From contig JAKZAN010000001.1 of assembly GCA_023053545.1 (NCBI GenBank), positions 3,120,565 to 3,184,564 of the forward strand: DNA of 64,000 nucleotides, in the 5' to 3' direction. The stretch comes from Lepidurus packardi. Lineage: Eukaryota; Arthropoda; Branchiopoda; Notostraca; Triopsidae. Positions 21,936 to 63,323 of the stretch are shown one piece after another (position 1 is the stretch's first letter; every line of letters starts with the position of its first letter). Below the pieces are notes generated by a model. It saw nothing but the letters and a program-made list of their open reading frames with translations. It had not been told where the DNA came from and ran no database searches. The position numbers and the translations under genes are program-made.

Positions 21936-24900
21936 TCATATTTTGCCTTCTTGGGTCAGATAAGTGACCCAATAAACGACGTTGAAAAGGGCAAAGACGA
22001 AGGGAAAAATTATGCGTGAAATGACGTCAATCCGTTTGGAGCGAAATTGGAATTGGCCCAGCCAGGAAGTGCAGCGTTGGCGGGTGCGAGCCGCATGGGA
22101 AGTGGGGGCCATAGTTCCAGCATTCCGGACGTGCAAATCGCAGTGATCCTGCTCCAGTAGGCAGCCTTCCGCGCGAGTAGGACGCATCAAGGGCTTCTGC
22201 TAAGGTAAGGGAATACGAACACCAAAAAAAGAAAAGGAAAAAATCAGTTTTGTCGTGCGAAATACAAAGTGTTTCCAAGAAATACATAAAACGTATCCTG
22301 AAGAATTACCACGTTTTATTCCTAGAGGGCAACAAGCACGAAAATGAAATTCTTGTGTTCAGAATAGAGTAAATAATACAGAAAATATGTTTCTGAATGT
22401 TCCACGTGGTTCTGGTGTAACGAAAGTGTCATCTACGGTACCTAAAATTTTTCTTACTATTTTAAGCGTGAAAATAAACAACAACAACCAGACACAACAG
22501 CACAGATGACTTGATCCTGAAAGTAGAGCAAATACATCAATAGATTTCTAAAAGGGTCACGTGGCTTGAGTGACGTAACGAACGTGTCGCCTATGGTAGC
22601 TTTGCCGGGAATGTTTTGTTTTCATTTTATGCGTGCATATAGTTCAAAAATTGAGCTTCATCTGCGCATTAGTAGAGGCAGTAGCGTGAAAATACATAGT
22701 AACCATGGTAAGAGACATCGTAAGCCGTGACACTTCCGTTATATCACGGCAGAAAGTTTACGCCTCAGTAGCTCAGCTCATGAAAGGATCTTCAGGAAAA
22801 TTGCGAAAATTATTCGTTGGTCTCAGAATAACATTTCGTATTTGTAAGTAGTAACCAAAATAGCACTGCGTGATTTTTAAAAAAGTTAATTTTTTTCTTT
22901 TTTTTTTTTTTTTTTTTTTTTTTGGTTTTACGATTGATTGGATTTAATTTGGCTTTTAGGATATAAGTGAAAGCAAATGGAAGGGATATTTTTTGGTTTT
23001 CTCATAGAACACAAAAAAGGTTTGGGGTGGAGTTTGACGGAAGTGATCCCTAATGTTTGTCTTATCTTGGGATACATGTTGAAGAGCTTCAGGCTTGGTG
23101 GTTTAAGTTTAGTAGTGGAGGAGAAGGGGGGAAGTGGGGCTATAGCAAGCCAGAAAGCCACTTATGGGGATATCTCGAGCTGCTCTTGTTCAGGAGAAAA
23201 GAGCATTGTTGAAAATTTTGTAGCGAGTACGAAAGTCTCGAGGTCGATATGTACATGCTTCCTTTTGTCGGTTATTTTTCCTTAGCTAAGCTGAAAGGAA
23301 TGCTACGAAAAATATCGAAGGCCAAGAAGATAAGAAATGATGCAGACGAAGTGCGTCTTTCCGTTTTAGCCTTTGCTGGCCGGATTCTGTGCGGATGATC
23401 GATATATGCATTCATCTGTGGGGACTGAGCTTAGAGTTATGGAGGATTCACTGGCGACGCACATTTTGGCCACGACTCAAAACAAATTTCATAGCGGTAG
23501 GTATTATAAAGAATAAACAAAATGCAAACTAAACTCTGTGTAAATATAAGTATACATAATTGTAGAGAAATCTTTTAAAATTTAGTTTTAAAAAAAATGT
23601 TAATTAAAAAAATTTAAATTTTTTTTTAAATTTAATTACGAGCCACAGATACAATGTTAGCCTATTCGCGAAGCGAAGGCTCTTCATCGGCTTAGAATTA
23701 TGGTAACAAACTTCGTGTCCGTAGCGTGTTGAATGCTCAGGTACTACGTAGATAATTAAACGAAAGCTCACCTAAGGAAACATGAAGATTGAGTGTAAAT
23801 TATATAAATTTTTCTAGAGCTCCTTCTTTAGAAAACGTCTTGTTTACATCTCCATCTCTCCCAATTATTGCTAAACCTAGCGACAGGGATTGCTGCGGGG
23901 CAGGAGTCAAGAAGGGAGAAACCGAGAGACTGAAAGGAACAAAAAAAAAACTAACATTACCATGGGGAAATTGTTTCTTTCTTGTTCGAGGAGCGCTTCA
24001 GATTCGAGAGCAGCTTGGTGCTCGATTTCCCATTGGCGTCGATGTTTCTTGAGCTTTTCACGGTGAGCGTCAGAGCGCGATGCATAGTTGACCAGGGCAA
24101 ATTCCAACAATGCCCCAAAGACGAAAGTCAAGCAAACGCCTGTCCAAACGTCAATAGCTTTGGTGTAGGAAACCGGCGGTAAGGAATTGTTGATGGAAGT
24201 CGTCTGTGTTGCCATAGTCAAAAGCGTCGTGACACCCAAAGAAACGCGGGCTGGAACAGCGTTGGCGTCCAACCAAAAGGAAACCCAAGACACGATCACC
24301 AACATGCAGCATGGAATGTAAATCTGGATTAAGTAGTAGCTGAACTCGCGTTTGAATCGAAGATCCACGACCAAGCACGAATAACCCCCTAAAACACATA
24401 TACCAAGAGATTATATTGAAACGGTTTCCACCCTTTCAAGTGCGAACATTTCTTTTGACTTGCATAAGAAAGGAAAGTTTTTTATTATTTAAAAGGGAAT
24501 TCAAAGGAATATAAAAGGAATAGATTCTGCTTAGGTAAAGCCAGTTTTTATTATACTATTTCGTGTCTGTTTATGTGCCATGTTTTTCACTAAATTGAGG
24601 GCTTATTTATACTACAGTAGACCGTGAAAAGTGCCAGTCGCACTATAGTCTTTACCTAATTCGCTCCCTAACGGCAAGAATGGGCGAAATCCACTATTTT
24701 ACATACGTTTTCTACAAGGTTACATGATCTGCAGAAAACGTACGTAAAACGGTGGATTTCGCCCATCCTTGCAGCTAGGGAGCGAATTTGGTAAAGACTC
24801 TATAGAGGGCGGCAAGGAACAGCAGACGGAATTTCAAAACGTTCGACAGCTTGGGCTGTGATCAGTTGACTTTTCGATTTGTGGGATTAGTTATTGTGAA

Positions 24901-27900
24901 ATATCCGAGATATCCTATGTTCTTTTGCAAATTTAACTAGTCTACAACACTAGTATAATAGGTAACGTAACGCAACATGTTTAATGATATTGTTGATTAT
25001 TTTCTTAACAATTTCCTAAAATACACTTATAAACGAAGTAACTAGATTTATCCTGGACCAGTCACGCATGATTTTTACAACCACAACTAATGCTCATGTT
25101 CTATTGTAAGTTACAGACCAAAATGTTTGCTAATTTCGTGTTTGTGTCGACTGCGGTAATTTTCAATCAAATGAGGTGTTTTTATCCTTTTAAATTTTGA
25201 AGGCTTTAAATAGGGAATGCCAAAGCGTTCAGTTTCTTGAGTGCGGCTTAGCTTAGTTCCACTCTATTCTCTAAATAACCAAAGTTCTAGCACTTGTACC
25301 GATTAAACTTAGAGCTGAAGCACAGAAACTAAGGCTCTCCCAGAATTAGGGCTGTACGTGCTATGCAAATCTTAGCCTACATTATTCAAATATAAGAATG
25401 GTCCAGGAATGCAACAGCAGCAGTGTAGTTCTACTTCTATGGTTAATTTTTAATTAGCATGTACAATGAAGTCCTATCCCTCTGGTGTGTTTTACTCCAT
25501 GCCCTCCTAAGCCCTTCAACAATAGATAGAAGAACTACAATTCCAGTACCGCTGTTTTTCCCGCAAATATGTGAAGGTCTGCGTTCGTGTCGTTTTGGCT
25601 GAATCCCCCATTCATGGCAAACCCGGAAAGTGTTTTCTCTTTTTCAGTTCCCTAGATACGCCATGAAAATATGAGAATGGCAAAAGATAGAAAGCTTCAT
25701 ATTTCCCAAACTTGCTTACTGTTCAAGTCAAAGTAGAATAATTATTAAAATATGACCACTCATGAAATGTTATATAGTTGCTCCAGTCCTCATGAGGGAC
25801 TATCACTGTATTCATCGTAACGTGCTACGTATTTTCTGTTCCTACTGCTATACAATGCTCCCCTCGTTAGTGTTTTGAGTACGGTCTCGCACAGTCACAA
25901 GTTGTTTCCTAATCTCCTATCGCCTTCGATGTCGAAGGATTTACTTGAGAATGCGGTCTCATTTCAAGGATGAAATTCGGGGAACTAATGAAACAAAATA
26001 ACTACTACATGGTAAGTCCATTACTGCAGTGAGAAAGATGACTTCAAATCGAACTTACCCGTGTTGGTCTTTTGTGTGCAGTAATCCGTCCCAAATTGCT
26101 GCAAACTTTGGAAGAACGTAATTAAAATGAATCGTACTTTAAAAGTTTTTTTATCTCTGGAAAGCTATAATAAGTTGTTTTGTAAATAACAACGTATTTC
26201 TTATAAATATATTTTAGGAAATAATTTTCCAGCATTAATTGAAGAAAACGTCTCTTACGTGAAACGAGGCAGTTGCATATTCTTGTTCACTTGCACAGGG
26301 TCGCCTTCTCGCCACAGGAAAACCTTTGAATCAATAGTAAACACAACTTAATAACCATAACCCCAGCTGTTGTTGAAAGTTCTAAAAGCAAGTATATCTT
26401 ATTTGCGTATCAAAAATAGTTTTGGGTTACCAAATCGTCGGTCGTCCAACCATCTTTTTTTGCGAGAGCAAAGGGGAGAAATCGGATAAGTTGTTTAAAG
26501 AATAAATTCTACTTTCAACGTAATTAACTTAAGTAACAGTAATTTATAACAGAAATACGAAATTTTTAAAAAGCGCAAACTATATACACTGCGTGGCAAC
26601 TTGCGAGGTTCCCGTTCCCCAATCCCATTCTCGTTCAAAAAGACGGCTCCGCTCGGCTTTAGAATTCGTAGTTTGCAATTCTAAGAGCCATGAACACGAG
26701 GGGTTGACTATGTTAAAGGGTCTAAGGTCTTGCATAGATAATTGACCTCTGTCAGGCTAGTGGCCTGCTGCTGGCGTTTGCAAATAAAACACACACAAAA
26801 TTCCAGTATTTTATGATTTACGCACTGTAGACTCTTCAAAACAAGCGAAAACCAAAGATAACAAAACAAGAATCCTAACAAAATTCTCAAAAATCGGAAG
26901 GATCTATTGAAGAAAAAATTGAAACGGAGGTAAAAATCCCCCACTAAAGAAAGCAAAATTGTATTGTCACTTACAGCTTGTCATTCTGAGAGAGCATGTT
27001 TGACGATCTAAACGTAGAGCAGGAAATAGGCAAGAGAGAAAAAAGTTAAACATTGTAGATTATTGAATTCGGGAGCCGGATATGGAGGGAAAGTATTCAT
27101 ATATTGCTTTTCTAGAAATTAATGACATAATACAGAAGAGAGTCTTCTTACCAAGCGGAAAGAGCTGCAGATTCATAGGGCAGGATAGCAACAAAGACAA
27201 CCTGTAAGCAAATGAATTCACGAGGAAAAAAAATTGAAGAGGAAAATTAAGAAAAAAGAGAGAATTGAAAAGTTTAACTTTGTCTCTCTAGTTTTGAGTT
27301 TTTGACGTTTGATTTACCTAATGCTGTACAAAACTTGACCATTTGGAAAGATACGGACGTAGACGTTGGGCACAATAATATTATGGAAGTGGCCCCTTTT
27401 CTCGTTGGTGAAGAACAGATCAGGCATCCATATTTTCATTGGGTCTGCCACTGTCAGATATTTAACTCGGCCTAAGAAAAAGCAGTCGATGAAAACTACA
27501 TATTTTCACTTTGCTTTCTCAGGCCTTGGATATAATGGGGTTTCGAGAGCATTTCTTTATCTAATTATAGTTGCACTTTAAAAAATGTACACATTAATCT
27601 ACCAAAATAATTTAAAGGTACATTCTGTTCTTAGGATAAAAAGACGTCCATTCAATAGTTTTTTTTTTTTATTTTAGTCGATGGAAGTGTTGAAAGAGGT
27701 AGCATTACTTAGTGTAGCTTACCTAGCCCATTCTCGTTATATTTCAAACGTTCATCGAGCCATTCTTCACGGAACGTGAGTTGCACTGCATAGTCCTGTT
27801 AAGCGGAAATATTATGAGAGCAAAGAAAAAATAATGACTTCTAAAGTTCAACGTCAGGGGTTCTTCTTACCATTTGGATGTCACTGATGGAAACAATGTT

Positions 27901-30208
27901 GCGGAAGAGGACATTAATTCGCACTAGCACCGGGCCATCTGTGGGTGGAGTTGTAAAACAGAAAATGGGAACACAGAAAATTGATTTTAGAGGTACGTTT
28001 TCCTTCCTCATTGCGAGTGGATAAGTTTTGGCGAGGAAAAAAAGAATTTGCCGCTTTGGTGGGCTTTATTTCTTTTTTGTACCTGAATTATTTAGTCCTG
28101 CTGGTCGAATCCGTTTGTCGTAATGAGCAGGCGCTAAAATTTTGTCCAAGACTTGCTTTTCGCGCTCTCGAGCATTCAGTTTGGCAGCCGAACCTGAAGA
28201 AGCCGAAGAAGCCACGCCCCCTCTGTTAGCGTCACCGCCTGAGGCTGAAGGTTCCCGTGACGAAAAGGGTTCCCTCGAAAGTACTTGTCCTAAAGCTCTG
28301 CCAAAGCAACATTCACTAGTTTATTTGGTCTTCTAAGTTTCGTTTCAGGAACAACAAAAAATTTGGAGCATAAAAAGTCCCGAATCGGCGAGTTGAACTG
28401 TTTTAAAGTGTAAAGAGTTCAATTCACGGACGAGAAAGACAAAAATATGAAGAAAAACTTGCCATCTTTTATGAAATGCTTCCCTTTTTTTGGGTCCGCA
28501 ATGCGGCGCCAAGACGCTTTTGATGTATTTTTTTTACTATTCCTGTTCCCTTTTCTTTTGCTATACTTTGGGCCATCCCAGTCGTACCCAACGTTTTTTC
28601 TTTTTCTTTTTGAGCTATTGTACCATAGTAGTCGCCAGGGCGTCTTATTGACGTCTTGGGCCTATTAAGTTAGATAGATACTCTTCCACTACTGGCACCA
28701 TCAACAGCATCGTACTGTAATGCCCAGTAGCAAGGGAAGGGAAAACCCCATAAAACGATATGTTCTGGCAAAGACTCGTTAACGAAAAGGGGGTAGGATC
28801 AGAGTTTGCTTGAGATATTGATGTCCGATTAAGTTCCCGTAGCTTTTCTGCTATAGGGTGAAGGTCGTTTGTCCTTGTCGCGGTTAAGACAAAGCTCAAT
28901 TCTGCGTCTGGAGTTGGGGCAGAACTTTACAGCCTTTCAAAAGATGTATTGAAATTTTTCCCCTTTTTATTTCGTATATCTCTTAAATAAATAGCAATAA
29001 AGTACGTAAAGACAGATAGAGGGTAATGGATTTTTTTTGGAGGGGATCATAGTAATTTTTTACTTTGGCTCAGGCGGTTGTTTGTTTTATGAGCCTTAAT
29101 AAGGAGGTGACGGCTGTGGTGTGCAGCCACACATAAGGAAAAACTGTTGGCGTGTATCTTCGTTCCCCCGTTTTATTGCTAGGTGTTACTGCACTCACCC
29201 CCACCCCCACCCCCCCTGTTCATGCGGCAGATATTACAGTTATGAGAGAGCAAACCCGACAACCCCTAAAATTCTGTTTCACTCGTTGTTGGCCTCCCTT
29301 TTTCGGATTTCTAGTTCAGAAGGAAATTGTTGAAATCGATTCAGTTTCCATACACACTCTCGACACGACCGTAGAGCAGGAAATTTTACTGTGTGAAAAG
29401 AGGAAGAATTTGACATCAGTTTCCAGTCTTGCCACGCCTACTGACTTGATCCAGGTGGCAACTCCCGTTCTTTATACTTTGCCTTTTTGGATAGTAATGG
29501 ACTCGTTACCAGGTGTCTAGAAGTACATTGTTTGTGTAGTTCTGTATGAAACTCTCTCGTTTAACCCCCAAACAATGGTAGCCTACAGCAAAGCAAAAAG
29601 CCTGTTTACGAGTTCGTAACGTCATTTTCCCCGTTTCTCAGGTAGAACTGCATCCTAGGAATAAGGCGTCCCAAAACTGATTGGGTGGAGTGACGTCAAA
29701 GCTACCAAACATTACTACCATTAAACTTGCTTTCTAAAAAAATAAGAAATAAGTCCTTCAAAGAGTTAGGAATGTATCTGTTGATGCAATCTTTTGGGAT
29801 TTTAGGAGGTGCTAGTACAGTACTATATTATCCAGCCCCCCCCCCCCCTCCCCCAGAAAAAAAAAAAGATAGCTACTGATAAAAATAAGTCCAATTGGGA
29901 TTTGTGTAACGAGTCAGGCTAAGGGGGACCGTTTCCACCGGTTAACTTTTCGAATTCATTATGTGCGTCATTCACCACTGGAAAGGCAGGCTGGGGTAAC
30001 GCTACGACTCCGGTGTAACCTCCAGAGAAACGTTGGTAGCTTTAATTTTTGACGGGATAGCTACACTTGAAAATTATTTCCCAGTAAGTCATGAACAACA
30101 ATGTGAAAACTTAAATGAAAAAGGGGAAAAGGAAATTTTACGTACGTGTTGAATACGGAAATTAATCCGAAGAATACAAATATCCATGAGTACAAGCGTT
30201 CCATTCTC
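21936..30208 (-). CDS. GluCl: Glutamate-gated chloride channel subunit (GluCl-A)
   Basis: This is a Cys-loop ligand-gated anion channel of nerve and muscle membranes, gated by glutamate and the target of macrocyclic lactones. Twelve minus-strand coding exons have matching phases: 30146-30204 (ATG at 30204), 28083-28297, 27871-27938, 27723-27795, 27318-27471, 27152-27201, 26975-27007, 26431-26453, 26259-26323, 26059-26105, 23961-24388, and 21936-22196 or 22199. The product is about 491 residues: signal peptide [20 protein letters not shown], ligand domain with [12 protein letters not shown], Cys-loop Cys197-Cys211 ([15 protein letters not shown]), second disulfide Cys256-Cys267, TM1-TM3 (about 279-360, [17 protein letters not shown] in TM2), and TM4 near the C terminus. 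The Pro-Ala-Arg entry to TM2 fits anion selectivity. The coding start follows a splice acceptor at 30210-30209, so a 5' UTR exon lies upstream. Large introns (22200-23960, 24389-26058, 28298-30145) hold repeats but no recognised gene. Confidence 0.95.
22400..22750. repeat. Diverged repeated segments in the last GluCl-A intron
   Basis: Segments near 22402-22443 and 22556-22604 share CACGTGG, then a GTAACGAA.GTGTC block, then a CTA.GGTA block. An inverted relative (GACACTTCCGTTA) lies near 22730-22742. The pattern suggests an old MITE or a local duplication. No coding content was seen. Confidence 0.4.
22890..22923 (+). repeat. Poly-T tract in a GluCl-A intron
   Basis: About 33 T residues are interrupted by a single C. 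On the gene's own strand this is poly-A. It may be a retroposon tail, but no body of an element was recognised beside it. Confidence 0.85.
24644..24804. mobile_element. Foldback MITE-like palindrome in a GluCl-A intron
   Basis: Two arms of about 70 bp are near-perfect reverse complements separated by about 20 bp. The left arm includes TCTTTACC, AATTCGCTCCCTA and GGGCGAAATCCAC; the right arm carries their complements. The outer ends are TATAG-like on both sides, compatible with a TA target duplication. The element is non-coding and sits in the intron between the exons at 24388 and 26059. Confidence 0.8.
29836..29848 (+). repeat. Poly-C tract
   Basis: Thirteen C residues, followed after a T by five more, lie inside the first GluCl-A coding intron. 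Confidence 0.9.
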
Positions 30209-54337: not shown

Positions 54338-57300
54338 ATTGGTGCGCTAACTTCACGGATTATAAGTTTAAATTAGCGGAAAATCGGAATTTCGGGAGAA
54401 GAAGATGAATTTACACAGAATGCACAACAAAATTGCCTGGCATTGGTGCTGCTTCCTTGGAATTTTGGTGATATCAGATTTAGCGTAAGTTTGAACGAAA
54501 AATTCATCACTGCTCGTTTATTTAACTTTGGGTTGAATAAATGTTAAACTTGACTCCATTCTTGACATACTTATTTATTAGAATAAATCAATAAATTCTT
54601 TGAAAATATTCAGCTTTCGAACATGATGTTTTTCAATATTCAAGATCTGTTTGACTTCCCGTATAGCTTAGCTTGTATTCGCTCAAGCTACTGTAAGGTG
54701 GCAAGGTTAATATGGATGTATGTGAACGCGCGTGGCTTCTGTGCAGAAACGGCATGCGTTGGTAACTTGATCACGACATACTCAATTGTCTTGCAGGTTT
54801 GTATTACAAAATACAATAAAACCTAGAAATTGACATTAAAAATTTGCAAATTTTGCTTGTTTTTGCATAGGCGTCAAGATGAATTTCATTCATTTGCATT
54901 TCTCAAATTGTTGAAGGAAAAATTATGAAAAACTAGACTCTTATTAACATTACTGTCAATAGCTTTTTCAAGAAACTCACTTTTTTCGTAAGAGCGTTCT
55001 GCTTTCTCCATGCTATCATGTCATGGCATGATTGACTAAGCTACACGGGAAATTCGTTTCGGAAACAAACATTTCGGATTCTAACGAATACGTTCCTATT
55101 TGGGATTTAGGTTTGGACAAATGGGCGGATCTGCCTCACAACTGAAAATTAATTACCGTGAAAGAGAAAAACAGATTTTAGACAAAATTCTTAGCCCTGG
55201 GCATTACGACCGCCGTATTCGTCCCTCTGGCGTTAACAATACTGGTAAGTGTCACGATGTATTTCCTTAACGTTATTTTTGGGGAGAGATATAGTACAAT
55301 AAAAAGGGGAGATTCCCGATGAGTGAAGTAGGTTATGAAGTTAAATTTTTTTTTGCTTCAATCATATTTATGTTCTTGTTTATTATTATTAAAATTTTAT
55401 TAAAATTATTATTAAATTTTCCAAAACTTTTCCTTAAGTTCGCGATTTCTGGTTAGGGTCCAAAACTAGTCACAAAATTATTTTTTTCAAAAAAGGAGAC
55501 GAAAACAGTTTATTTGAAGTATTTAATTTTTTGTTCTCTCTCCCTCTCTTTCTCTTTTCTCCATTGCTACTTTTTCCTAAAAAAAATGGGGCGTGAAAAA
55601 TCTTATGCATTCAGACGGACCTACTTTTGTAATTATCAACATTATGATCAGAAGTTTTCCAACTATAAGCGACAATCGAATGGTGAGAAAAAAACAAGAA
55701 TCTTGCAAATTTTTTTTAAGTTCTGGATTGGTCTGTCGTTTTTTAACACCAAAACAAGTAAAAAAAATAAAAAATGCCAAGGACTTGACCGAGTCCCCCC
55801 AAATTTTGTTTATTATTTCTTGATGTCTCTTTTGATTAGGAGAATGTTATCCATTTTTGAATGTGGCTTCTACGCGTTTTTAATTTTTGTTTTTTTGTTT
55901 GTATTTTTATTGTAGTATTTATTGTAATACATACTTTTATTAGAAAAGTAATAGTGCATGGTGGGATCGGGAGTAATTTGTCGTTAATGTTTTCTTTTTG
56001 GGCTGTAATTCCCCCGCCGAGAACCGTAGATTTTATAGTTTCTTAGACAGTATTTATAGTTGTTTCTTGTTTAAAAAAAAAGAATAAAAAAAATAAAGTA
56101 ACGAAATGACCGGGAAAAACTAGTTAAGAAACCAAAAGTTTCAGTTGGTTCGAAGAAACATTATTTTTGTGGTTCGTTATATCCCCGCCAGATGGTCCCG
56201 TGTTCGTGGATATCAACTTATTAGTGCGAACCATCAACAAAATTGATGATTATAAAATGGTGAGTCTACTGGTGTCACAAAACTCCTGTTTCTCCCTCAG
56301 AATTTTTTCTTTACATGGATGGAAGCAATTTCAAACGGAATTAGGCAATAAGTTTTAGTTATTACAAAGAAAATGACTAAAAAGGAGTCCGCACCTCACC
56401 CAAAGAGTCCGCACCTCACCCAAGGAGTCCGCACCTCACCCAAACCAAAATGTCCGTCTTTTTAGCTTATTTCCTTATTGTTTAGCACTCTAGATACAGC
56501 AGTAATTAATTTTCACTCGTCAGCAAACATTTTCAATTGCTTTCAAATCTTTCAATTGCAATTCACGTTCAACAGACTCAGAGCTAATGAATAAGAGCCA
56601 ATGTTAGGTTATGTAGTTTAATAACAATAAACAGGTTCCTTTCTCTTCATATTGTAAATAATGGAAGCAATTTCGGTGGAGTTTGTGGGGGGTTGCGGGG
56701 TTTAGTTGAGGCAAACCCCCAGGAAGCCAGCTGACTTGATTAGGTTCGTTTTGGGAAAAAACGGCACGGATTTCGCCTGCACTAGTAAAAAAAAACGTTA
56801 AGTGTTTAATAATTATAACAGCGATCCAGTATTTCTCTTCGCAGTAAGATTTACTTCCCAACGAATTCAGATTTGTTTCACAAAACTTATTTTTTTAAAT
56901 AATAGAACCTTGATCGTTGCGGTAACGATTGAAGTTCTAAAGTTCAAGAGTATTCAGTTTTAGTTTCTTCTGAAATTTTTTCTTCCCTCTACCCTTCAAT
57001 TATGTGAATCTGTTTGGAATTCTGATTTATGTGAATCCGTTTGGAATTTTGAATTATGTGAATCTGTTTGGAATTTTGCGGATTATCTGTTTACATACCT
57101 TTTGTACGAATTAGCTTTGATTTTAGTAGATAGAAATCCCAGAGAGGATCAAATGTTTGAAACTGTCAAAAAAGCGAATGACAGAGGCTGCGAGAAGGTT
57201 ATGATAATCGAACCACCCCAAAAGATCGACTTTGTGACTTACCAAGGATTCCACGTATCGGTGCCCAACTCCGAATACAAAGGGCTCATAACCCTTTCCA

Positions 57301-60300
57301 AATCCAACAGAAATGTCATAGTCAGTTGTGTAAAGGAGCTCTACATCATCCTTCAAATCACTTCCCCACATTCCCTCCCTATCACGGTGATTGAAATCTG
57401 TAGGCGACATATGACAGATACCCACACTGCTACGTACTATATGGGATAGATGTAAACATCTGAGCCCAGACATAGTACTCACAGGCGATTTCAATTTTCA
57501 TCACTGGTGGTGGGAGAACAAATCGACAGACGAGGCAGGCAACCTTTTGACTGACTTTGGACACAGACAGAACTTTGACTTACTAAACAAATAGGACACT
57601 GTTCCACATTAGACTTGACATTCGCGACGCCCCAGACTCTAACACAAGTGAAACACTACCTGCTAAACAATGATACTTTTATAAACGAATCGGACCACGC
57701 CGCAATAGTCATAGACTTTCTTTCACATAGTATAAACCACCTTCTACTCACATTTGGAACTACTACAAAGCAAATTGGCCACAACTGAACACAGACTTGG
57801 CAGCAGACATCCTCCAAAATATCTCAGTTTGCACTGACCTACAGACTCCACATGACATTGACGCAGCCTTGTATTGTTTAACTAGGCTAATCACACGCAC
57901 CATATTGAGCAACATCCTGAAATGGATAATCGGGAACAAAACTAACCCTTGGTGGAACTCTAGTCTGAAGTCCTTGCGAAAGCAAACTGCCAACTTACAC
58001 AAACTTCACCGGGTCTCGCAAAATCCACAGAGTGAAGAGGCATGGAAACGTACTAAAAACCAATACAGAACGGATGTTCCCAAAACCGGAGAGCTCTATT
58101 GGAATGCCAAACTTCAAACTCCAACAACAGAATATTGTGGAACTGGAATAGATCCCTTCGCCAATCCTCTAACCACAACCGATTCAATGAAGTTTTTAAC
58201 AATGATGAAAAACCATTTATCGACACAAAGTCCAGACTAGATTTCATGGCCACGGAATTTTTTAATGCTCATCATCAAACACCTACCCCCTTACCACCCT
58301 TTCGACCTACCAAACGTACGAACCATCCAATCACTCCGGACGAAGTTACTGCTATCCTTAAGGACATCCCTCCCCTAAAAGCCACCGGACATTATGATAT
58401 ACAAGCAATAGTTTTGAAAAACACATGGAAAACAGTTGGTTTCACAATTTTAAGAATTTATAATGCAATTCTTTTAAATATCCACTTTCCAACCCACTGG
58501 AAAAACGCGAAAGTTCTTGCTCTACCCAAATACAACAAGGAGAACTACACATGTGTAAAAACTTTTCGCCGTATATTTCTACTACCAGTACTAGGCAAAG
58601 TATTGTAGTAGGCGATATCAAAAAGGCTATCAGCTCATTTGAGGGAGGAAACCTACTCTCCAACATGCAATGGGGATTCCGGCCTAACCGTTCAACTACA
58701 GACGCTCTCATGACTTTGACCGATTCAGTTTTGAGTAGCTATAGCAAACGCAAGATCACCACAGCCTTACTCCTTGATATCAAAGGGGCATTTGACAACG
58801 TGGACTACGGAAAGCTCATACAAATTGTAAAAAAGTACATCCCACTTATACATGCCTCATCCAAAGCTTCCTGGCCGATCGGATGGAATTCGTCTCACAC
58901 AACGGCTCATCTAGCAACTAATTCCTATCCGCAAAGTTGTACCACAAGGTTCACCGTTTTCTCTGTTGCTTTTTCTTATATACATAGATAGCGCACTGGA
59001 TCTCACCAAAGGCAAGAGAGTCAAACTGATTCATACCGAGAGTCATACCGAAAGTTTCTTTATAGTACACTTCCTCTCAACATCCCCTCCCTCCCCCTAC
59101 CTTCTACCCTTCCCTCCCCCACTGTAATTAGCCCAATTTTTGAAAGTTTTGGAAATCAAATGACCAATAAGTAGATTGGCAATAAGCTATTGCCTACGCC
59201 GGTTAATAATTTTAAGAAAATCCAAGAGAGTGTTACTCCTTTTCTGGAATCCATTTATCACTGAAGTAATGCCAAAAGAGGAAATAATAACTAACTTCAA
59301 ACACATGAAGCTAAAAGCAGGGTTAGTATAACAGGATTGGCCTTTTGGAATTGGAAGAAAGTTAACATTTTTCCTTCAGATATTCGTTTCTTAGATGCAG
59401 ATCTGTTTCAATCTTGTTTAATTTATTCTTCCCTTTTTCTCTGAGAAAGGCTCATTTTAATGAACCGGATGGTTTAATAACATGGAAAATTACAACTTAG
59501 TTATTTTAAATCTTCTAAAAGCAAACGTGTTTATGCCTTTTCCTAAACAGTTTAAGTGAACGCAGAAATTATGTAGTTCTGTACCTTGTGAATTTCACAG
59601 CTTCTATAATTGTAAATCCTTGTAGAACACCCCCCTCCGTGATTTTTTTCCCTAGTATTTTAAGAGGCCATTTTGGGTTTTACCATTTTCTTCCGTTTTG
59701 CACCGCATGAGAGCGCGGGCATGAGAGAATTCCCAGGAATGGTTGTCGTGCCTAAACTGAATTAATATTATGTGTTCCTGTTTGCTTTTCTACTAGTAGG
59801 GATTTCCCATGGATACGTTCTAACTAATTATCGTATAATTTCTTCGTTATAGGAATACAGTACGCAAATTACTTTCCGGGAAGAATGGATTGATGAACGC
59901 CTCAAGTTTAATGACCTAGGTAAGAAAAAAAACAAATAACAATAATAACACAAATTAGCAAACTCTGTAATCAATAACTCGTTTTACCTACCTCCCTTTT
60001 ATAGATGTTATTAACTAATCCATATCTGTAACTCGAGAATAACCACTTGTATTTACCCTACATAATTTAGTCAAAAACCCACTTGTTAGTTGTACAATTA
60101 ATTAATTATTAGATTGTTACTGCAGAAAAGAATTTTAAGCAGAAAAATTAGAAATGAGATAACTTGCTTGCAGATATTTCGAGTACCATAAGCTTCCTAT
60201 CAAACAGATTTTTGCAAATTCCTTATCTTCTGGAAGTATTATCAAAGACATTAAAAATAATTATGCCCAAATAGCCCAAATAATTTTCAATTAAACTAAA

Positions 60301-63300
60301 TTTCTTAAAGCTTATTATAGAATCCTAATCAATCACTTCTGCCCATCCATTTTCAGTTAAGGTTCCCATAAAGCTTTACTTCCGCGACACGTTTTTTATA
60401 CACGAGTTACCACAAGGTGGCGGCACGTGCTTTGCATGCGTGCAAACCATGCGTACTGCTCCTGTACGTAGATGGAACGGCGTAGAAGATAACTTTAGAA
60501 TCACATTTTCGATTTGCTTGAAGAAACTATAGTAAAATATCTATATGTCCTATAATATCTAGGACATAAACATTCAAAGCTCAACGGTTTCGCTTCTTTT
60601 TTCCAAATTAAGTTACTTAATTTGCATACGTTCTCGAATTATCTGATTATATTATTGCGTCTTTCAAATTTAGGAAGGTTAAAATAAAACGGTATATATT
60701 TCTTTCAAATTAATTTCAAATCTCCTACATCTTATAGGGCGGATCAAGTACTTGACGTTGACTGATCCCAATAAAGTATGGATGCCCGATCTGTTCTTTT
60801 CCAACGAGCGCGAAGGACATTTCCACAACATAATTGTGCCTAATGTTTACGTACGCATTTTCCCTAATGGCGCTGTTTTATACAGTATTCGGTAAGTCTA
60901 TTTTTAAGCAGCTTAGACTTTTATATCCTTCGATATGCATCATGGTATACATTACTATTCCACTTTCTGGCTCAGAAAATCTTCCTTTCCCTCATTTCGT
61001 ACAGTATTCTTATTTTTTGTGTCTTTCTTTGTCAGTCAGGAACCCTAAAGATAGCAACTTCAGCAAGCGCATTACCATGACAAATACTAGCGAGGGCAAT
61101 TATTCCTGATTCTAGATCCCTCTCCCCCTCTGTTGTCTCTGATACGCTTACGTGGATCTATCCCTTCTTATTTCTCTCTCTCTCTTTTCTGTTTGGCAAG
61201 CTCGTGAGGCCTGTAAGGATCCACTTCTTTCTTGCCCCTCCAGTTTGATCCTTTTTTTATTATACATTTATCTATTTGTGGAAAAGGTAGTGTAGATTGA
61301 GTAGCAAAATGATTGAAGGGGCAATTTCGCGTGGGATTTTATATATGATAAGTTGTATTCAAGCAGGATTGATTTTTTAGCATTGTGTATATGAGGTGTC
61401 GGATGAGTTATTGATTCCTCGAGCTTCAAGTCCTTGGCAAGGGAAAGGAAAAATAATCCGCCGGATGGGTGAAGCCAAAAAAATAATCACTCGGAAACGG
61501 CAACACACAAGTTTTGACGTTCCTGTCCTTTTACGTCCTTTGATAAGCATTGAATTCCTATTTACAAGCTCCAATCTAGGATTTCTTCTTCCCTCCCTGT
61601 TAACTTATCACCCCAACCCCCACCAAAGAAATAATTCTTTAATGAATTCGTTCGTTTTCGTTTGTATATATGTTTGCAGGGTCTCCTTGACGTTGTCCTG
61701 TCCCATGAATCTCAAGCTGTACCCTATGGATAAACAGAAATGCCTCTTGAATATGATCAGTTGTAAGTATTGTTAGCAAATCAAGAAGGGTTTAGAATTA
61801 AATAAGAAAAAATCTTAGATTAATATATCTTCCATTTACATTTCCGCAGATGGATGGACTACTGACGACTTGGTATTCTTATGGAGGTAAAAAAAATCTA
61901 TTGTATTATAAAAACTATGTAGGCTGCCGTATAGCATTAAACAGCATGGAGAAATCAGACCTAAAATTTGAAAATTAGTCTGAACAATGCACATTAATTA
62001 AGTTAATCTTTCATCTACGAGAAAAAAAGAAAAGGTCGTACGTGTTGAAACCGTCATCCACAGGGCAACATTCTATTGATTTCTTCAAGAAAGCCTCGTG
62101 CAAGTTGATGAAGCTATAATGTTAGCATGAACGCCGGTCTCTGCGCAGAACCAAAGCGCATTAATTCACCACCGTACGAAACACGTTGCGTCAACTTGTG
62201 ATAGCTAAATTAACGGGTTAAGCTGTACGTGAGCTTTACAATAATTCTAAAAATATTCAAGTTCTGATGACAAGTAAAGAGTGATGTTTTTTTTAAATGA
62301 CACAAGACGAATAACCGGAAAATAAATAACCTTTTTCTTACAGATCAGGCGATCCCGTGCAAGTAGCACCTAATATGCACCTACCGCGTTTTATTCTTGA
62401 AAAGTTTAACACAGATTACTGCAACAGTAAAACCAATACAGGTATGCGAACTAAACTTATATAGGTACATTTTTAATAAAACTTGAGAGATTCTAATATA
62501 ATTTTTCTAATTGCTTACTTTCCTTTCTATCATTGGTTTCTTAAAATAGGCGAATATTCCTGTCTATTAGTAGAGTTACTCTTCAAGCGAGAATTCAGCT
62601 ACTACCTGATCCAAATTTATATTCCGTGCTGTATGTTGGTAATCGTGTCATGGGTATCGTTTTGGTTGGACGCGAACGCAGTTCCCGCCAGAGTGTCCTT
62701 AGGCGTTACGACGCTCTTAACCATGGCTACCCAAACCACTGGCATCAACAATTCCTTGCCTCCGGTTTCTTACACCAAAGCTATCGACGTTTGGACTGGG
62801 GTTTGCCTCACCTTCGTCTTTGGAGCACTGCTAGAATTCGCGTTGGTTAACTACGCTTCACGTTCAGATGCTCATCGAGAGAAGATCAAAAAGCAACGCA
62901 GACAGTGGGAACTGGACCACCAAGCCGCCATGGAGGCGGCTGCGGCGGCCTCTGCAGCTGCCGTGGCTGAGAATCGCCTCGAAGATGGTGTCAACACCTT
63001 TGCCATGGTACGTATTGCAATAAAATCAAATTAAAAGATTATTTTTATAAAGTGGGTTTGTAATTCGTTTGTGACTTTCTTTTAAGAAGCCCTTTGCACG
63101 TTTACGAGGCGACGTGATGACTTTGGACAAAGCTCGGCAATGCGAACTTCGTATGTCTGCTCCCAAACGCGATAGTTGCTGGCGGTCATGGATTTCTAAA
63201 TTTCCGTCACGTTCCAAGCGTATTGATGTCGTTTCCAGGATCATCTTCCCGGTGATTTTCGCGTTTTTCAACTTGGTTTATTGGTTCACGTATTTACTCC

Positions 63301-63323
63301 GCGAGAATGTCGAAGACGAGTAA
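54338..63323 (+). CDS. GluCl: Glutamate-gated chloride channel subunit (GluCl-B)
   Basis: This is a second Cys-loop glutamate-gated chloride channel subunit, paralogous to the one at 21.9-30.2 kb. Coding exons are 54405-54484 (ATG 54405, signal peptide with core [11 protein letters not shown]), 55111-55244, exon 3 as either 55615-55682 or 56192-56259, 59853-59919, 60738-60891, 61680-61762, 61850-61886, 62344-62441, 62550-63007 and 63087-63323. All phases agree, giving about 471 residues. Visible marks are [12 protein letters not shown], the Cys-loop Cys175-Cys189 ([15 protein letters not shown]), a second disulfide Cys234-Cys245, TM1-TM3 (about 257-340), the TM3 Gly324 in DVWTGVCL, an alanine-rich M3-M4 loop, and TM4 followed by an acidic tail. 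The first coding exon begins at an acceptor (54336-54337), so the 5' UTR continues upstream. The intron 56260-59852 contains a dead LINE and tandem repeats. Confidence 0.95.
55615..55682 (+). other. GluCl-B exon 3, alternative copy 1
   Basis: This 68-nt exon has a CAG acceptor and a GTGAGA donor, entered in phase 1 and left in phase 0. It encodes [20 protein letters not shown] and ends NRM. The ISD-type ending resembles exon 3 of the paralogue GluCl-A ([10 protein letters not shown]) and one of the insect exon 3 variants. Length and phase are identical to the copy at 56192, so only one can be used per mRNA. Confidence 0.85.
56192..56259 (+). other. GluCl-B exon 3, alternative copy 2
   Basis: This 68-nt exon has a CAG acceptor and a GTGAGT donor, with the same phases as the copy at 55615. 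It encodes [20 protein letters not shown] and ends YKM. The KIDD-type ending resembles the other insect exon 3 variant (SISKIDD). Using both copies would break the reading frame (136 nt), so splicing must be mutually exclusive. Confidence 0.88.
56383..56443 (+). repeat. 20-bp tandem repeat, three copies
   Basis: Three near-identical copies of a 20-bp unit starting GGAGTCCGCACC lie in the intron just after the second exon 3 copy. Confidence 0.9.
57000..57078 (+). repeat. About 27-bp tandem repeat, three copies
   Basis: Three copies of a unit beginning TATGTGAATC.GTTTGGAAT lie directly before the degenerate LINE. Confidence 0.85.
57102..59040 (+). mobile_element. Degenerate non-LTR retrotransposon (LINE), intronic
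   Basis: Fragments of a single LINE polyprotein appear in order but in several frames. First comes an endonuclease-exonuclease part with [13 protein letters not shown] near 57500 and [10 protein letters not shown] near 57690. Next is a PWWN linker near 57950. A reverse-transcriptase fingers region follows ([27 protein letters not shown] near 58580). Then come [13 protein letters not shown] and [12 protein letters not shown] near 58770, and [20 protein letters not shown] near 58930-58995. Stops and frameshifts interrupt every part, and the sequence ends before the second catalytic Asp box of the transcriptase. The copy is therefore truncated and dead. The order and motifs fit the Jockey/I group of elements. 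It lies in the same orientation as GluCl-B. Confidence 0.85.

Follow-up and report, generated by a model that had tools for sequence, protein, structure and literature searches.

In insects, GluCl, the receptor of ivermectin-type drugs, is well known to be made in alternative versions that differ in exon 3 (PMC10380907, PMC2064938, PMC7017565). In Tribolium this exon is 68 bp long and encodes 23 amino acids, and its tandem copies are alternatively spliced between shared constitutive neighbors (PMC10380907, PMC2064938). Three copies are present in Tribolium, with 56.5-73.9% identity among them (PMC10380907), and two in the fly and the bee. The exon 3 variants of Bombyx are described as having similar EC50 and different Imax values; those of Musca have similar EC50 and Imax for both glutamate and ivermectin and differ in blocker sensitivity (PMC10380907). 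In Bombyx, exon 3 splicing alters the size of the response, most likely through cell-surface expression (PMC12960926, citing Furutani et al. 2014). The homologous ligand-binding-domain exon of the insect GABA receptor RDL is also duplicated and alternatively spliced, as exons 3a/3b(/3c) (PMC2064938).

Here we describe a GluCl locus from a non-insect pancrustacean, Lepidurus packardi. Insects have one GluCl gene, whereas we observe two, and only one of them, GluCl-B, carries a pair of exon 3 copies. The pair resembles the insect exon in its 68-nt length, in its position just upstream of the exon encoding Loop D and in consisting of two tandem copies of the same phase. The copies are 48% identical (11/23 residues), below the range given for Tribolium. 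Alternative GluCl exon 3 is thus already known; the less usual feature here is that, of two old paralogues, one has the pair and the other has a single type. As the best explanation overall, to which we give a probability of roughly 0.65, we propose that cassette choice in GluCl-B tunes receptor output and that the pair predates the split between the two genes, is shared with insects and lost one member in GluCl-A. Among the literature matches listed we found no paper on crustacean GluCl exon 3 alternatives, and the available portions of two crustacean GluCl papers (PMC10038264, PMC5096308) make no mention of them.

Two divergently oriented GluCl genes

The window, the whole 64,000-nt stretch of DNA analyzed here, is part of a contig of 14.0 Mb; the assembly comprises 344 contigs and totals 108.6 Mb. 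Two divergently oriented GluCl genes are present in the window, with GluCl-A encoded on the minus strand and GluCl-B on the plus strand. The GluCl-B exon model (54405-63323, +) is open from the start codon to TM4. Exon 1 (54405-54484), with the start codon and a presumed signal peptide, and exon 2 (55111-55244) precede the two versions of exon 3; these are followed by exon 4 (59853-59919), exon 5 (60738-60891), exon 6 (61680-61762) with the Cys-loop, exon 7 (61850-61886), exon 8 (62344-62441), exon 9 (62550-63007) with TM1-TM3, and exon 10 (63087-63323) with TM4 and the stop codon, whose acceptor possibly lies 3 nt further on. The best phmmer match of the GluCl-B protein containing exon 3b is 3rhw GluCl alpha (E 1.5e-111), and GluCl-B carries the Cys-loop, the second Cys pair, the PAR motif before TM2, and the TM1-TM3 and TM4 segments. 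The GluCl-A model (21936-28297, -) runs from exon 2 (28297-28083) to a TM4 exon read by eye (22196-21936), the first exon lying outside the model. The introns around exon 3 are common to both genes. Between the Cys-loop and TM1 the intron positions differ, GluCl-A having extra or shifted introns (27151-27008 and 26430-26106, -) compared with the corresponding region of GluCl-B (61680-62441, +).

A genome search with the TM1-TM3 segment of GluCl-B gave 21 matches. Among the best candidates, which were scored, GluCl-B itself was recovered at 100% and GluCl-A at 96%, and the remaining channels reached at most 57% identity to the query, except for one 28-residue stretch at 61%. We therefore take the genome to have two GluCl genes on the basis of these similarities.

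Anatomy and reading frame of the exon 3 cassettes

The initial annotation had proposed that GluCl-B contains two mutually exclusive 68-nt versions of exon 3, one of an ISD type and one of a KIDD type, between the exons at 55111-55244 and 59853-59919. Our gene model agrees with all of these exons. Cassette 3a (ISD type, 55615-55682, +) and cassette 3b (KIDD type, 56192-56259, +) are separated by an intron of 509 bp (55683-56191); both are open, are bounded by AG and GT, start in phase 1 and end in phase 0. Each encodes a 23-residue peptide, the first codon of 3a being split with exon 2. GluCl-A has a single exon 3 of ISD type (27871-27938, -), also encoding 23 residues, with flanking introns of 144 and 75 bp, as had been described, and no second copy or relic was found in its locus.

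The reading frame makes the choice between the cassettes consequential. With either cassette alone, GluCl-B encodes an open 471-residue receptor from the start codon to TM4. As a 68-nt exon shifts the frame, inclusion of both cassettes leads to a stop at codon 105 and omission of both leads to one at codon 85; each premature stop is followed by several exon junctions. The cassettes should therefore be mutually exclusive in effect at the protein level, an exclusivity that we infer from the frame. Transcripts with both cassettes or with neither would be destroyed, presumably by nonsense-mediated decay, and GluCl-B would make two receptor isoforms by choosing one of the two tandem exons.

Search for further copies

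We scanned the window for further cassettes and found only three places scoring at least 25, namely the three known cassettes. These score 111-119 in the scan, whose reference set included them; pairwise scores among the three are 57-61 BLOSUM62 units, and the maximum of 30 mononucleotide shuffles of the window was 32. A third or decayed copy was not found between exons 2 and 4 of GluCl-B (55245-59852), nor was a second cassette or relic around GluCl-A (32000-26000, -), with or without a splice-site requirement, and nothing further rose above the background set for both loci by 20 shuffles of the GluCl-B stretch. Genome searches with each cassette joined to its exon 4 gave three matches each, all within GluCl-A or GluCl-B, and located each cassette once. 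Each of these searches missed the other two cassettes, such that they exclude close copies only and equally diverged ones would escape. No relatives were found by tblastn in further genome contigs and viral contigs.

Additionally, we scanned 13 stretches, each of up to 9.9 kb and covering a subset of the other anion-channel genes, for a duplicated exon 3. Seven of these (L032, L033, L034, L035, L037, L042 and L043) contained 68-nt candidates resembling exon 3, with scores of 27-53, some of them near the shuffle maximum. In L034 there was a second 68-nt candidate, on the opposite strand and without the motif; the candidates in L031, L040 and L041 differed from 68 nt in length, and L036, L038 and L039 yielded none. 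No convincing second copy of exon 3 was seen in any of the 13 stretches. Insect RDL has a duplicated exon 3, whereas a single exon 3 was seen in the RDL-like gene L033 over the 9.9 kb covered by the scan. Two genes, L032 and L033, are RDL-like and read PARVSLG at TM2, with Ser at the 2' place. Insect RDL has Ala at this place, and we take the Ser in both genes to be a natural residue of the dieldrin-resistance type.

Conservation and divergence of the cassettes

In each cassette pair, codon positions 1 and 2 match more often than position 3: 28/44 versus 5/22 between A-3 and B-3a (p=0.002), 28/44 versus 6/22 between A-3 and B-3b (p=0.005), and 26/44 versus 7/22 between B-3a and B-3b (p=0.03), without correction for the three tests. 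Agreement at third codon positions is close to random among the cassettes, and four-fold degenerate sites are saturated between GluCl-A and GluCl-B, with 31/111 identical. Both GluCl-B cassettes thus look maintained, and selection on the encoded protein would have preserved them for long.

Exon 3 (12/22, using 3b) is the least conserved of nine exons compared between GluCl-A and GluCl-B, a comparison that covers exon 1 by one residue only and leaves out the TM4 exon. B-3a and B-3b are identical at 34 of 68 nucleotides and 10/22 residues, and A-3 matches them at 10/22 and 12/22, respectively; counted over 23 residues, A-3 shares 11 with B-3a and 13 with B-3b. Identity to C. elegans GluCl alpha is 13/23 for B-3b, 10/23 for A-3 and 7/23 for B-3a, and B-3a is closer to the glycine receptors alpha1/alpha3 (9/23) than to the worm channel. 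B-3b matches provisional sequences of Drosophila 3a at 14/23 and of 3b at 13/23. At the level of motifs, A-3 and B-3a have I-S-D in common and B-3b and C. elegans GluCl alpha have R-T-I-x-K-I-D in common; the fifth residue is Phe in both GluCl-B cassettes and not in GluCl-A. BLOSUM62 scores are 61 for the B-3a/B-3b pair and 57 and 60 for the two pairings of a GluCl-B cassette with A-3.

Possible effect of the exon swap on the receptor

By alignment to 3rhw, the cassette corresponds to residues 25-47 of C. elegans GluCl, the part of the ligand-binding domain made up of the beta1 strand and the beta1-beta2 loop. The Loop G arginine (R37) is present in each of the three cassettes, and the Loop D arginine (R56) lies in the TFREEW motif of exon 4. 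R37, on the beta1 sheet, is described as salt-bridged to the alpha-carboxyl group of glutamate (PMC4178172). Changing the Loop G arginine of AVR-14B (R76N) leaves ivermectin currents and no substantial gating by glutamate (PMC4338433), and the effect of this arginine is ascribed to hydrogen bonds of its side chain rather than to its charge (PMC5339774). Modeling in Tribolium placed the exon 3 region near the glutamate pocket without direct contact (PMC10380907). Our mapping disagrees with that model because R37 lies in exon 3; it places the glutamate-contacting Loop G arginine within the alternative exon, a role not credited to exon 3 in the modeling study (PMC10380907).

In the coupling loop, positions 39-46, 6 of 8 positions vary among the three cassettes, versus 7 of 15 elsewhere. 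At C. elegans position 45, A-3 has Ile, B-3a has Asn and B-3b has Tyr. The worm residue V45, in the beta1-beta2 loop, meets P268 of the M2-M3 loop during gating (PMC4178172). The cassettes thus differ in a loop that contacts the pore domain at its M2-M3 loop. As the swap leaves the glutamate arginine unchanged and replaces the coupling loop, it should tune output and not transmitter identity. Our best reading of the sequence is thus that the GluCl-B cassettes are a mutually exclusive exon pair altering receptor output with glutamate recognition retained. Every isoform would keep the Loop G arginine and recognize glutamate unchanged, and the swap would most likely act through gating coupling, the number of receptors at the surface, or both.

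Several alternatives bear on this reading. The pair could be real and the swap could act on receptor assembly and surface number, not on gating coupling. The title of Furutani et al. 2014 likewise attributes the Bombyx effect to cell-surface expression. We give this explanation somewhat less than an even chance: the Bombyx effect is ascribed to surface expression (PMC12960926), but the Lepidurus cassettes differ at a loop to which the coupling of ligand binding with gating is assigned (PMC4178172). It is improbable, in our view, that only the KIDD exon is used, with B-3a decaying or rarely used and its job taken over by GluCl-A. Such decay would fit B-3a being the cassette least like C. elegans GluCl, the residues Pro-40 and Asn-45 that it carries, and a pyrimidine content beside its acceptor that is the poorest of 19 examined; however, its frame is open, both splice sites are intact, the Loop G arginine is kept, and its codon positions 1 and 2 are conserved relative to position 3. 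An assembly artefact or unmerged haplotypes can hardly account for the pair, given that the cassettes share only half of their nucleotides, that the introns around them are dissimilar and that the contig is 14 Mb long.

Origin of the cassette pair

The initial annotation had left open whether the exon was duplicated after the gene split or a copy was lost from GluCl-A. Loss in GluCl-A is favored by our analysis, although not significantly. In a quartet of A-3, B-3a, B-3b and C. elegans (23 residues), the tree joining A-3 with B-3a and B-3b with C. elegans is best by 2.0 lnL, and the other two trees, with AU p values of 0.15 and 0.24, are not rejected. When provisional sequences of the two Drosophila cassettes were added to give six taxa, a class-wise tree was the best of five tried, by 3.2 to 5.3 lnL, with none of the four others rejected (AU p 0.27-0.35). 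As for a correspondence of each copy to an insect cassette class, the best tree groups the cassettes by class, not significantly, and raw identities are mixed. The ISD label rests mainly on a short motif, because A-3 is nearer to B-3b than to B-3a and B-3b is about equally close to both Drosophila cassettes.

A duplication within GluCl-B after the split, independent of insects, would make the ISD and KIDD likeness a convergence on a repeatedly duplicated segment. We consider this unlikely, although several observations agree with it. The quartet test does not reject it (delta lnL 2.0, AU p 0.15), the homologous exon is also duplicated in insect RDL (PMC2064938), the two GluCl-B cassettes share the fifth-residue Phe that is absent from GluCl-A, and their mutual score is slightly above their scores with A-3. 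Among related anion channels, vertebrate GLRA2 also has an exon duplicated in tandem, presumably exon 3A/3B; this glycine receptor has Asn in place of the Loop G arginine and its duplication is taken as independent. GLRA2, GluClAlpha and avr-14 are listed together among convergent tandem exon duplications, the exon being unspecified there (PMC9741552). However, in residue identities B-3a is as diverged from B-3b as from A-3, which speaks against the cassettes having been duplicated after the two genes separated, and a late origin does not fit the I-S-D motif shared by A-3 and B-3a or the R-T-I-x-K-I-D motif shared by B-3b and C. elegans GluCl alpha.

We therefore hold, with moderate confidence, that the cassette duplication probably predates the A/B split and that GluCl-A then lost its KIDD copy. 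Under this early origin the ISD/KIDD duplication would probably be shared with insects, GluCl-A would have become a fixed ISD-type gene, and GluCl-B would have kept both cassettes, with its ISD copy drifting. We suggest more tentatively, with the odds somewhat against it, that the pair is older than the divergence of crustaceans and hexapods and has persisted since then, and that after the gene duplication GluCl-A became a fixed ISD subunit and GluCl-B a switchable one, whose splicing would decide which type of coupling loop an A/B receptor contains. Common ancestry with the insect pair would make the splice choice older than insects and mean that it has outlasted synonymous saturation by far, and if it is ancient, a splice choice has partly been turned into a gene choice. 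The two-gene arrangement would then be a natural test of gene duplication replacing alternative splicing. Nervous-system transcriptomes of a crab and a lobster are reported to contain one GluCl transcript each (PMC5096308), suggesting that the A/B duplication need not be general to crustaceans.

Splice-site setting of the cassettes

The acceptor of exon 3a is unusual among the 19 acceptors that we examined, a survey that left out the first and last introns of GluCl-A. Only 10 of its last 20 nucleotides are pyrimidines, the lowest count, with the others at 12-16. An uninterrupted 29-nt pyrimidine run (55534-55562, +) ends 52 nt upstream of this acceptor and holds the only 25/25 pyrimidine window of the survey. 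The run lies inside the AG-free zone of exon 3a, which is 93 nt long, second to that of one GluCl-A intron (97 nt). As an impression from the letters, this suggests that use of exon 3a is regulated and that its branch point is distant, and that the pyrimidine run is a possible splicing control region.

The 509-bp spacing of the cassettes is not too short to splice. We found no sign of an RNA structure enforcing exclusion in the two single introns folded, which fold no better than shuffles (z 0.78 and, for the 509-bp intron, 0.72). The intron from exon 3b to exon 4 is 3.6 kb long, the longest of GluCl-B, and holds a retrotransposon remnant, probably non-LTR, consisting of broken reading-frame pieces (57102-58991, +). 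Of two pieces searched, one matches the reverse transcriptase family PF00078 (E 7.7e-10). Short tandem repeats lie downstream of exon 3b at 56385-56444 (3 x 20 bp) and 56998-57078 (3 x 27 bp).

Other observations in the genome

We also observed 41 cox1-family matches in the assembly. Many of these, on contigs C1-C6, C21 and C38 among others, contain TGA and other stops and look like nuclear mitochondrial copies, and long stop-free cox1-family frames on contigs C43, C52 and C214 look like bacterial contigs inside the assembly. Contigs C1-C6 measure 10.7-14.0 Mb and five others inspected 25-161 kb, sizes that would agree with six chromosomes in a tadpole shrimp. One nuclear mitochondrial copy, L024, has the order tRNA, nad2, two minus-strand tRNAs, cox1, tRNA, cox2, tRNA; its tRNAs were called by Rfam (one of the five just below the gathering score) and none by ARAGORN, and the nad2 and cox2 assignments come from inspection of the table-5 translation by eye. 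The COX1 protein seems to be of branchiopod and not of insect type. By its anticodon, the tRNA that separates cox1 from cox2 is Leu-UUR. A Leu-UUR tRNA between these two genes is a mark of Pancrustacea. Most of the branchiopod mitochondrial genomes that have been analyzed are described as having the Pancrustacea order (PMC8942981).
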